Below, in pieces: positions 9,291 through 39,988 of a stretch of 64,000 bases of DNA; positions within the stretch are counted from its first letter, which is position 1; each line of letters opens with the position of its first letter. The notes under the pieces are model-generated. The model saw only the letters and a list, made by a program, of their open reading frames with translations. It did not search any database and was not told the origin of the DNA. Made by a program: the position numbers and the translations under genes. The DNA is from Candidatus Agathobaculum intestinipullorum (GTDB lineage: Bacteria > Bacillota > Clostridia > Oscillospirales > Butyricicoccaceae). The stretch is taken from contig DWZQ01000015.1 of assembly GCA_019117485.1 (NCBI GenBank), forward strand, positions 1 through 64,000, in the 5' to 3' direction.

Positions 9291-9480
9291 CTCGCGCGAT
9301 AGCGCGCATAAATCAGAAGTGGACGGCAAGCCGCTCGCTTCATCAAAAGCCCAGCTCTGCCGGGCTTTTGATACCAGTGCGAAGCAAAGTTTCGCGCGTC
9401 GGAACTTTGCGCAGTTTGGGCGGCGTCCGCGCGCTGCGCGGCGCTGCCCTTCGCACCGAAAACGTGTTTTCGGGCGAGCA
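9291..9480 (-). repeat. Multi-hairpin intergenic repeat, copy 1
   Basis: Reverse complement aligns with copies 2-4: CCAAACTGCGCAAAGTTCCGAC..GCGAAACTTTGC and GGTATCAAAAGCCCGGC..GCTGGGCTTTTGAT. Confidence 0.85.
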
Positions 9481-10386
9481 TCAGTCATGCGGCCGCCGAT
9501 AAAAATTGCCTGCCACCTGATCGGTTTTCAGGATGTTGACAAAGGCATGCGGGTCAATCTCACGCGCAGCGCGCGCCACCTCTTTTACCTGATCGCTGGC
9601 GATCACCGAATAAATCAGATCGCGCTCTTCTCCGTTGTACAGGCCGGTGCCATGGAACAGCGTCGCGCCGTGGTGCGTGGTATCCTTGATGTGCTCGTAG
9701 ATATCCTGCGCACGGTTGGAAATGATAAACAGCGTGTTGCGCTTGAAACGCTGGTCAAGCATATTGACAACCTGCGTCGAAGCAAACTGAAATATGATCG
9801 AATAGAGCGCCTTGTCCCAGCCGAACAGCGCGCCTGCAACCACAAGCATCAGGCAGTTGCCGATGAAAATATAGTTCCATGCATCCACGTTCAGCCGCTC
9901 ACTAAGGGCAACCGCAATAAAGTCGGTGCCGCCACTGGTCGCGCGGCCAAGCAGGCACAGGCTGATAGACAGGCCGCTGAAAATACCGCCGAAGATGGAG
10001 ACGAGCAGCACATCGTCCGTCAGCGGCATGGAGGGGATGATATCGGTCAGCACGCTCGTCAGCGCAATCATCAGACAGGAATAGATCGTAAACCGTTTGC
10101 CGATCAGCCGGTAGCTGACCACCGCAGGCACAGCGTTGAGCAACAGGTTAATCGCAGTAAACGGCAGCGCGATACCTGCAAACTGCTGCGCGCTGCGCTG
10201 GATGAGCAGGGTCAGGCCGTTAAACCCGCCGGGGAACAGGCCGCCTGCATCGACAAAACTCTTGATATTGACCGCCATGACGACCGAAGCCAGCACGATC
10301 AGGAACAGACGGCGCGCCTGTCCGGCGAGCGGCGGCTCCCAGCCTGCGGCCGGATGGCTGTTAACGGATGACGGTTGCTTGTTCAT
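9481..10386 (-). CDS. YitT/DUF2179 family membrane protein
   Basis: INIKSFVDAGGLFPGGFNGLTLLIQR, GGTDFIAVALSE, C-terminal DUF2179-like domain. Confidence 0.9.
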   Translation of the reverse strand: MNKQPSSVNSHPAAGWEPPLAGQARRLFLIVLASVVMAVNIKSFVDAGGLFPGGFNGLTLLIQRSAQQFAGIALPFTAINLLLNAVPAVVSYRLIGKRFTIYSCLMIALTSVLTDIIPSMPLTDDVLLVSIFGGIFSGLSISLCLLGRATSGGTDFIAVALSERLNVDAWNYIFIGNCLMLVVAGALFGWDKALYSIIFQFASTQVVNMLDQRFKRNTLFIISNRAQDIYEHIKDTTHHGATLFHGTGLYNGEERDLIYSVIASDQVKEVARAAREIDPHAFVNILKTDQVAGNFYRRPHD

Positions 10387-26933: not shown

Positions 26934-27132
26934 ATGCGCTTCGCGCTCGATCGAAAGCACGCTTTCGATCGAAGGGGACGCACCGCGCTCCGCGCGGATG
27001 CGTCCAAACTGCGAAAAGTTCCGACCGGCGAAACTTTTCGCAGTCCTTGTATCAAAAGGCCGGCCAAGCTGGCCTTTTGATGGGAGACGGCGCATGCGTG
27101 CCGTCTCCTTGTTCATGCGCGGCTGCGCCGCG
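26934..27132 (+). repeat. Multi-hairpin intergenic repeat, copy 2
   Basis: GGGGACGCACCGCGC..GCGCGGATGCGTCC; GCGAAAAGTTCCGAC..GCGAAACTTTTCGC; TTGTATCAAAAGGCCGGC..GCTGGCCTTTTGAT. Confidence 0.85.
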
Positions 27133-28132: not shown

Positions 28133-29779
28133 TCAAAGTTCTTTTACTTGGATGTCAAATGCTTTCGCCCGGCCGATCAGCTCGTCGACCGCGGCGTTTT
28201 TTTGTTCTATCGGCTCGTCGCCCGCCTCGCGTACCTTGACCTTGATCGGCGCTCCCGCGAGCGCAGCTGCCTGTTCCCTGATAACTTTCATCGTCGGTTC
28301 CGCCTTGGCCAGCATGACCGTGATGCCGTCCTCACACAGGATAACTAGTGCGCCGTCCTCCAAAACGCCCTTGCCGGACAGTTTGAGGTTGGTATATGCG
28401 CCTGTATTGATCTTACCGGATAACGCATCAAGCAGCTGCGGCCACTGCGGCCACGCGGCTATCGCCGGTTTGTCCGGCTGCTTGGGTTTGGGCGCGGCCT
28501 GCGCGGACGCCTCATCCGCCAGCCATCCGGGCGCATCACGGTCGTCCGGCGGGGGTGGCGCGTCCTCATCACCCGGCGGGGGCGGCATATCCTCTGCCTG
28601 CCGCGCCACCGTCTGCGCTGGGGCTGCCGCAACCGGCACGCCGTGTTTCAGCTTTTCCTCAAGCGCTTCGACGCGTCCGCCGAGCGAGTCGTACTGCTCC
28701 GCGCCCAGACTGCACAGCCGCACCGCACAAAGCTCTGCCTCGACGCGGCGGTTCGCTGCGCTGCGCATACGGTCGAGCGCTTCGCCAATCACCCGGCTCC
28801 ACGCGATCAACGTCGAGCTTGCCAGCCCGTCGCACAGCTTCTGCAAGCTTTTCACCGAATATGCGGGGGAAATCAAGGCCGACACATCAGTTTTACTGGT
28901 TTTGACCAGCAGCGCGTCGCGGATCAGGCCGAGCATCTGGTCGTACACCGCCGCAAGGTCGCGGCCTGCGTTGTAATAATCGTCAATCAATGCGACTGCC
29001 GCTGCAAGATCACCGGTTTTCAGGTGTTCGGCAAGGCGGATGCCGTCGTCCTGCCCGAGAACGCCAAGCGCCGCAGTCACGGCCTGCTCATCCACCGCCC
29101 CGGCAGCCGCCGCGCGGTCGAGCATAGAAAGCGCGTCGCGCATGGCGCCGTCGGCCAGACGGGCGATCAGCCGCGCCGCACCCTCGGTCAATTCGATGCC
29201 CTCGCCTGCGGCTACATCCAGCAGACGTCGGGCAATGTCCTCCGCACCGATGCGCCGGAAATCGAACCGCTGGCATCGCGACAGGATAGTCGCGGGCACC
29301 TTATGCAGCTCGGTCGTTGCCAGAATAAACAGCACATGCTCGGGCGGCTCTTCAAGTGTCTTGAGCAGCGCGTTAAATGCACCGATAGACAGCATATGCA
29401 CCTCGTCGATGATGAACACACGCTTTTTGACCTGTGCAGGCGTATAACGCGTCTCGTCGCGCAGGTCGCGGATGTTGTCCACACCGTTGTTGGATGCCGC
29501 GTCGATCTCGGTCACGTCCAGCACGGAGCCGTCCAGAATACCACGGCAGGCCGCGCACTCGTTACACGGGTCGCCGTTTACCGGATGCTCACAGTTGACC
29601 GCACGCGCCAATATCTTAGCGCAGGTGGTCTTGCCTGTGCCGCGCGTGCCGGTAAACAGATAGGCGTGGCTCAGGCGACCGGATTGCAGCTGTGCGCGCA
29701 GCGTGTCCGTGATGTGCTGCTGCCCGATCACGTCCGCAAAGGTCTGCGGCCGCCACTTGCGGTATAGTGCCTGATACAT
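28133..29779 (-). CDS. dnaX: DNA polymerase III subunit gamma/tau
   Basis: MYQALYRKWRPQTFADVIGQQHITDTL; GTRGTGKTTCAKILARAVNC. Confidence 0.97.
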   Translation of the reverse strand: MYQALYRKWRPQTFADVIGQQHITDTLRAQLQSGRLSHAYLFTGTRGTGKTTCAKILARAVNCEHPVNGDPCNECAACRGILDGSVLDVTEIDAASNNGVDNIRDLRDETRYTPAQVKKRVFIIDEVHMLSIGAFNALLKTLEEPPEHVLFILATTELHKVPATILSRCQRFDFRRIGAEDIARRLLDVAAGEGIELTEGAARLIARLADGAMRDALSMLDRAAAAGAVDEQAVTAALGVLGQDDGIRLAEHLKTGDLAAAVALIDDYYNAGRDLAAVYDQMLGLIRDALLVKTSKTDVSALISPAYSVKSLQKLCDGLASSTLIAWSRVIGEALDRMRSAANRRVEAELCAVRLCSLGAEQYDSLGGRVEALEEKLKHGVPVAAAPAQTVARQAEDMPPPPGDEDAPPPPDDRDAPGWLADEASAQAAPKPKQPDKPAIAAWPQWPQLLDALSGKINTGAYTNLKLSGKGVLEDGALVILCEDGITVMLAKAEPTMKVIREQAAALAGAPIKVKVREAGDEPIEQKNAAVDELIGRAKAFDIQVKEL

Positions 29780-29840: not shown

Positions 29841-29850
29841 CGTTCTCCTG

Positions 29851-30008
29851 CGCGCTACGCGCGCCATTTGATAAAAAGTCTGGCTCCGCCGGACTTTTTA
29901 TACCAGTCGGAGCAAAAGTTTCGCTTGTCGGAACTTTTGTCCCGTTTGGATGTATCCGGGCATCGCCCGGTACATCCCACTCGCTTGAAAGCGTGGTTTC
30001 AAGCGAAA
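29851..30008 (-). repeat. Multi-hairpin intergenic repeat, copy 3
   Basis: Reverse complement: GGGATGTACCGGGC..GCCCGGATACATCC; CAAAAGTTCCGAC..GCGAAACTTTTG; GGTATAAAAAGTCCGGC.. Confidence 0.85.
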
Positions 30009-38663: not shown

Positions 38664-39020
38664 CTCGGAGAGGCAAAGCCTTTCAGCAGAATTCTTTGAC
38701 CGCCCTTCCCCCGCCGGGAAGGTGCCAAGGCCATACGGACAGCCGGGTCAAATGCCGCACATGGCAACTTTGTTGCCTTATTGAATTTTATAAGTTGGCT
38801 GCTTAAAAGCCGTGTGCCGCGGGCGCATCACACTTGTGAAACAATCAATAAGAGTAGTAAAAGTAGATTCTTGCTATATAGACTCTTTCCTCTTCCAAAG
38901 ACAGACGGTCCGGGAAAATCCGGCCCAAAGAGAGAGATTGCCTTCCTCAAGTGTAAGTTCGTCCCGCTGCCGCGGGGCTTTTCTTTTGCTTGAGGATTTT
39001 TTATTTTTGTGAGGATAACG
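38664..39020 (+). promoter_or_regulatory. Structured ~350 nt leader of speD operon (candidate riboswitch/attenuator)
   Basis: Hairpin GAGAGGCaaaGCCTTTC; three-way junction closed by TTTGACC/GGTCAAA; hairpin GGCAACtttGTTGCC; terminator before SD. Confidence 0.65.
38944..39009 (+). terminator. Intrinsic terminator immediately 5' of speD
   Basis: CCTCAAG ... CCCGCtgccGCGGG ... CTTGAGG ATTTTTTATTTTT. Confidence 0.8.
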
Positions 39021-39799: not shown

Positions 39800-39965
39800 T
39801 TCGGTCGGAAATACATTTCCGACCGAGGGGACGCACCGGACAACGTCCGGATGCGTCCGTTGCGCCGATTTGCGCGCCAATCCGGCACACAAATCGGCTC
39901 CCTTGTATCAAAAGCACGGGCAAAGCCCGCGCTTTTGATGGAAATATGCGCTTTACGCGCAATAT
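39800..39965 (+). repeat. Multi-hairpin intergenic repeat, copy 4 (inside the spe operon)
   Basis: GGGGACGCACCGGAC..GTCCGGATGCGTCC; CCGATTTG..CAAATCGG; TTGTATCAAAAGCACGGGC..GCCCGCGCTTTTGAT. Confidence 0.85.
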
Positions 39966-39988
39966 CCCTTCCGAAAGAAGGTTTTATA

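Follow-up and report, generated by a model that had tools for sequence, protein, structure and literature searches.

Hairpin arrays behind stop codons in Agathobaculum: a probable new family of mosaic palindromic repeats

The 64,000-nucleotide stretch of DNA that we analysed (hereafter the window), taken from a 2.1 Mb Agathobaculum genome, contains four arrays of hairpins. We assign these arrays, with a probability of about 0.62, to a new genus-restricted family of non-autonomous mosaic palindromic repeats. On this reading a copy would be a string of near-perfect DNA hairpins lying flush behind a stop codon or the 3′ end of an RNA gene, and would end before the ribosome-binding site or the terminator of the next gene. 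Copies would have spread, at least in the past, by means of a putative enzyme, with the folded hairpin tips as its probable recognition target. Complementarity of their arms would be maintained at the DNA level, either through hairpin-templated correction (template switching) or because copies exchange whole hairpins; selection on RNA pairing would not be the main cause. An earlier note on this DNA had described the four arrays, and had overlooked their abutment on stop codons, their shortage of G-U pairs, their spread through the genus and a sister array with the same P4-P6. The arrays and their relevant neighbours are as follows.

9292-9478, minus strand: copy c1, covariance-model match; hairpins P1 ~9477-9452, P2 9450-9418, P3 9414-9378, P4 9372-9342, P5 ~9341-9315, P6 9307-9292
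26947-27132, plus strand: copy c2, covariance-model match; hairpins P1 26947-26972, P2 26976-27005, P3 27009-27043, P4 27051-27081, P5 27083-27108, P6 27118-27132
27166-27765, minus strand: recR (named from its own sequence), neighbour of c2
28133-29779, minus strand: dnaX, neighbour of c3, used to fetch orthologous sites
29850-30006, minus strand: copy c3, with P1, P2, P3, P4 and P6, without P5
30030-30296, minus strand: large SRP RNA (RF01854), upstream of c3, used as G-U control
39801-39967, plus strand: copy c4, covariance-model match; hairpins P1 39801-39826, P2 39829-39858, variant P3 ~39865-39897, P4 39906-39940, fused P5/P6 ~39942-39967

Copy c1 comes after the TGA (9481-9483) of a gene at 9481-10386 (minus strand). 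Copy c2 lies between the 3′ end of recR and prfC and is antisense to both, and c3 lies between the 3′ end of the SRP RNA and a hairpin GGAGGCGGGC..GCCCGCCTCTTTT (29837-29811) in front of dnaX. A scan for intrinsic terminators around c1-c3 found no more of them than in shuffled sequence. Copy c4 occupies the gap between a speD-like gene (stop codon 39788-39790) and a decarboxylase gene (start 39989). Upstream of these two genes, the window also contains a match to Rfam RF02440 (SpF59, 'ldcC RNA'; 38697-38758, plus strand; 61 bits, cut-off 37.2). This RNA was described from streptococci, and the match is possibly a polyamine-gene leader outside that group.

P1 is formed by TCGATCGAA-loop-TTTCGATCGA. 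P2 (GGACGCA CCGCG..CGCGG A TGCGTCC) contains a single unpaired A, P3 reads AAAAGTT-CCGACNNGCGA-AACTTTT and P4 reads GTATCAAAAG..CTTTTGATG. P5 and P6 follow P4, and P6 is the end of the element. Of 66 copies, all 66 have the bulged A in P2 and nearly all have the P3 loop; the 5′ arms are variable, with 25 distinct versions for P1 and 42 for P2. The unpaired A and the P3 loop are strand-specific features, which suggests that something probably reads one folded strand. A covariance model (R1), built with three of the four window copies and without c4, matched c1-c4 with 133.8, 130.8, 128.7 and 95.9 bits (E 4e-34 to 9e-24). The places, the end-to-end alignment and the P1-P4 architecture (with P5/P6 where present) given in the earlier note were recovered, as was the deviating P3 of c4. 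Since four other species (G021, G012, G007 and G004) have the latter at the corresponding junction, it is an inherited variant and not noise.

The family extends well beyond these four copies, contrary to the absence of further copies that the earlier note had named as a refutation. In the own genome, 22 R1 matches exceed 65 bits, 18 of which lie outside the window, and 53 are found at E up to 0.1, the weaker ones including reverse-strand echoes and partial arrays. All 25 Agathobaculum genomes contain matches, with at least 52 in the richest one. None was found in the 12 other genera of the family that were searched, and a single weak match (E 4.6e-4) appeared in one of 24 order-level genomes; most of the genomes compared are MAGs. 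In a collection of 85,488 species, the exact P3 pattern AAAGTTCCGACNNGCGAAACTTT matched 74 stretches, all titled Agathobaculum, including the cultured A. desmolans ATCC 43058, except those belonging to one Eubacteriales MAG (S27M_St_5). The pattern had no match in viral contigs, hence no sign of carriage by phages was seen there. The Rfam comparison proposed in the earlier note placed the element below the gathering score of every family, and relaxed thresholds gave chance-level matches only. A literature search, with subscription journals outside its coverage, gave nothing relevant on such repeats in Agathobaculum or Butyricicoccus.

The sister array, named type B as opposed to type A for the arrays described above, is composed of the hairpins TATAGGGG..CCCCTATA, GTTCC..GAAAC and GATACCC..GGGGTATC. 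It has P4-P6 in common with type A and uses the same junctions; its hairpin B3 and P4 compete for the same GTATC. Exact matches to GTATCAAAAG elsewhere in the genome, considered as type A candidates, were mostly genes or members of the type B family. With the type B model (R2), each of the 25 congeners gave 2-28 copies, and none of 15 other genera gave a match. Type B copies include the following.

L179, 3068-3168, minus strand: type B copy (model R2)
L149, 3268-3369, minus strand: type B copy (model R2)
L241, 924-1024, plus strand: type B copy (model R2)

The position of the arrays was analysed relative to genes called by a simple coding-score script, from which starts and ends were taken. 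An upstream gene was called for 93 copies and is co-oriented with the array in 73 of them. In these 73 copies, P1 starts at a median distance of 2 nt after the stop codon (quartiles 1-3). Among the 35 copies with at least 20 nt of room, 27 are no more than 4 nt away from the stop codon, where the null predicts 2.5, so that this abutment does not merely result from short gaps. Junctions typically show TAA or TGA, then 0-5 bases and the first stem, and a few copies have the stop codon within the stem of P1. For reversed copies, P1 is 21-24 nt from the start codon in seven cases. When both neighbours were called, 3 of 86 copies lay between divergent genes, and copies in tandem contexts were co-oriented in 51 cases and reversed in 17. 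The own genome taken separately gives 11 versus 6, which is not significant; its sites include pheS/pheT, rplI/dnaB, purE/purC, rpmH/rnpA, SRP RNA/dnaX and a speD-type operon, as named from their sequences.

Hairpins at gene ends, with a P5 stem that is often A/T-flanked, evoke ordinary intrinsic terminators or the degenerate ends of a known insertion sequence. This explanation is very improbable, given that arrays also occur inside operons, have no Rfam match and are found in a genome without a Y1 transposase, and that a separate T-tailed hairpin often comes after the array. The presence of this hairpin after the array in several places suggests that the array is probably inside the transcribed 3′ region rather than being the terminator. 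The flush position behind stop codons, the scarcity of copies between divergent genes and the 3:1 co-orientation also fit a cis-acting structured RNA of 3′ UTRs or operon spacers (stabilising, ribosome-stalling or processing) that would be selected on RNA folding, as do the conserved strand-specific features. A quarter of the tandem copies are nevertheless reversed, and this explanation was confronted with the pattern of base changes in the stems.

In a structure-aware alignment of 13 copies from the own genome, comprising 44 pairs in P1-P4, paired cells amount to 94.0% compared with 80.5 ± 1.0 in shuffles, and cells with two-sided changes to 63 compared with 16.7. Two-sided changes affect 28 of the 44 pairs (11.7 in shuffles), in agreement with the earlier claim that changes fall in pairs which preserve the stems. 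The covariation score is 0.362, against 0.123 in shuffles and at most 0.082 when partners are slid. Covariation is therefore significantly above chance, as it is in structured RNAs.

In RNA helices, changes go via G-U, which is tolerated far more than A-C. A G-U on one strand is an A-C on the opposite strand. Pairing that is kept on double-stranded DNA should therefore show no difference between the two, because the strands interchange them. In the variable pairs of P1, P2, upper P3 and P4 of the 66 type A copies, we counted 2361 Watson-Crick pairs, 20 G-U, 38 A-C and 18 others. The same count on the large SRP RNA, in 20 of these genomes, gave 642, 63, 2 and 12, respectively; the Fisher p of ~1e-14 for this comparison is too small because the copies are related, and more generally copies, species and pairs are not independent, which makes such p-values too small. 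The G-U deficit is not made by the covariance model, since the model should favour G-U over A-C. Orthologous copies showed 84 two-sided Watson-Crick changes, 23 G-U, 32 A-C and 14 others, and their unpaired columns differ at 19%. For type B, 46 two-sided cells were found versus six one-sided ones, all at one pair, and in the sister species G000 and G016, over four junctions, 15 pairs changed on two sides and 10 on one side.

The arrays thus lack the preference for G-U over A-C that characterises structured RNA. Since G-U does not exceed A-C, unlike in the SRP RNA, the pairing appears to be kept at the DNA level: judging from these sequence counts, it is probably strand-symmetric and so a matter of DNA. 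Where the earlier note had left the choice between selection on a folded RNA and on hairpin DNA, the RNA half finds no support in the counts (20 G-U to 38 A-C, where the SRP RNA has 63 to 2), and the hairpin DNA half fits. There is a better reading than selection on a folded RNA, and we consider a structured RNA family unlikely. Template switching yields two-sided changes in one event (PMC8794818).

We compared four junctions in up to 25 species, and found the array present, absent, reversed or swapped for type B at orthologous positions. Between the SRP RNA and dnaX, type A is present in nine species including the window genome, in one of which another repeat breaks up P4. Five species carry type B there, whose P4 and P6 are those of type A; the array is absent in G002, and in G009 an array is reversed and placed beyond the dnaX hairpin. 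At the recR site, type A is restricted to G000 and its close relative G016, G017 has type B, two species have a single P1 hairpin and several others are array-free. At the speD junction, six species have type A and G008 has a remnant made of P1+P2; type B, whole or in part, occurs in six, and G005 has a 27 nt array-free gap. Between pheS and pheT, type A occurs in seven species and type B in about ten; G019 and G013 have both, first type B and then a reversed type A. The gap of G006 is array-free and 18 nt long. Between the ACT and DUF711 genes, five species have type A and eight a gap of 16 nt. Overall, array-free gaps measure 16-27 nt. Among P4 alleles, compared for exchange between copies, some inner sequences recur at different places and most of the 52 occur once, a pattern that exchange and new change would both explain. 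By eye, no clean or consistent target duplication was seen at four junctions, where the flanks of array-free junctions have diverged. At these shared points, the arrays thus behave as mosaic units, which are gained, lost and substituted for one another.

Many copies are old, having been kept vertically at one junction in 2-6 species, and some absences are likely losses. This is likely the case at the ACT site, since the leader common to G000/G016 and to distant species is gone in nearer relatives. Vertical retention at one junction also fits a resident functional element, and the 3:1 orientation bias in tandem contexts together with the strand-specific bulge could reflect a role of the transcript; both count against a mobile repeat. 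Long-term retention at the pheS-pheT, rplI-dnaB, purE-purC and SRP-dnaX junctions would likewise suit a structured RNA, but many congeners have no array at the same junctions, or have another array instead. The strand-symmetric pairing and the combination of constant tips with variable arms could also be explained by protein-binding or cruciform DNA sites (for gyrase, a nucleoid protein or a recombinase), that is, by selected double-stranded palindromes that are not themselves mobile; deletion of whole arrays could then account for some empty junctions. This is improbable: an ordinary sequence-specific site would not have 5′ arms as variable as those of P1 and P2, nor would it need six consecutive hairpins, and the two orientations and the exchange of types A and B are better explained by movement or recombination.

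Other sequences were noticed around these junctions. In the pheS-pheT loci L226 and L231, from two species that are not closely related, the ribosome-binding site of a GTG start codon lies in the loop of a palindrome AAAAATTC-AAGGAG-GAATTTTT, beside a reversed type A array. G011 and G024 (L198, L199, L237 and L238) have AT-rich degenerate repeats AATTAGTAATTAGTAATGAG.. in gaps where congeners have arrays. A third short repeat, ~GGTGAATTGC..GCAAGAG.AG.TGGCC, is found upstream of dnaX in G007 (L158) and after recR in L155 and L159, and once sits inside a P4 loop. The SRP-dnaX gap of G008 (L165) contains, upstream of dnaX, two copies of a GGCGTGGATTGAAAT-like sequence that resembles a CRISPR repeat.

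Known repeats provide partial parallels to a mobile mosaic family. REP/BIME elements are dispersed intergenic palindromes of mosaic organisation, located near ORF 3′ ends and mostly after unidirectional or convergent genes (PMC3733652, PMC12306157). The arrays are likewise dispersed intergenic palindromes near gene 3′ ends, and resemble them in the mosaic combination of hairpins and in the alternative complementary residues of their stems. However, a REP/BIME unit is a single one of 20-40 bp, whereas the arrays have five or six different hairpins in a fixed order with mostly longer stems, and G-T pairs, reported as frequent in REPs, are not enriched in them. Neither GTAG nor a conserved terminal CGTC flanks the hairpins in our alignments: P4 is preceded by (T/G)GT, and the CGTCC of P2 belongs to a variable stem. 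No RAYT (Y1_Tnp, PF01797) was found in the own genome; across Agathobaculum, 5 of 25 genomes had any PF01797 match, 4 of them over the cut-off. This search gave no mobiliser, and no mobilising gene was identified.

Bacterial MITEs such as ERIC, RUP and NEMIS (PMC2229807) are, like the arrays, non-coding, shorter than 200 bp, dispersed in both orientations, foldable, and present or absent at orthologous sites. The arrays differ by having local and serial hairpins, without TA ends or terminal inverted repeats joining the ends; in folds, no consistent helix joined both ends, a short flanking helix in c2 aside. The intergenic, CerM-associated CIR repeats of Caulobacter (reviewed in PMC2229807) are nearest to the arrays in having serial arms: theirs are joined by a linker, with a conserved tip motif and an unclear mobility mechanism. 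They have two arms instead of five or six, a GANTC tip that was not seen in the arrays, and a host from another phylum. The double-hairpin or repetitive hairpin elements of organelle DNA, reported for example from sponge mitochondria (PMC2800124), are also mobile-looking hairpin units of intergenic DNA, with one or two hairpins. The earlier note had hesitated between a MITE/REP-like element and a structured RNA. MITE/REP-like describes the behaviour well (dispersion, both orientations, presence/absence, mosaicism); as a formal class, REP fails for want of a GTAG tag and of a RAYT in the own genome, and MITE for want of terminal inverted repeats. The arrays work like REP/BIME elements and are best filed as a new family beside them.

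As for mechanism, we tentatively propose, as a somewhat doubtful extension, that the element is mobile in the form of a folded multi-hairpin DNA strand, that an enzyme outside the known Y1/RAYT class directs it to stop codons, and that hairpin-templated copying keeps its arms complementary. If true, strong 'RNA-like' covariation would arise without selection on RNA. A transcribed row of hairpins behind the stop codon may, as a consequence, affect translation termination or mRNA decay. REPs located at most 15 nt from the stop codon are reported to stall ribosomes, according to the discussion of that study in PMC12306157, and a similar side effect of the arrays is plausible by analogy.

Covariation is usually regarded as all but proving a functional RNA. 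The repeat family described here shows strong covariation, yet with SRP RNA as control from the same genomes its pairing is strand-symmetric and so probably a matter of DNA. Comparing G-U with A-C counts is thus a cheap check for false RNA families. With hundreds of copies in 25 species, including orthologous and array-free sites, this set would allow template switching, hairpin conversion and selection to be separated directly. Finally, the flush location of the arrays behind the stop codons of housekeeping genes raises the question of translation termination and operon expression in these gut butyrate producers.
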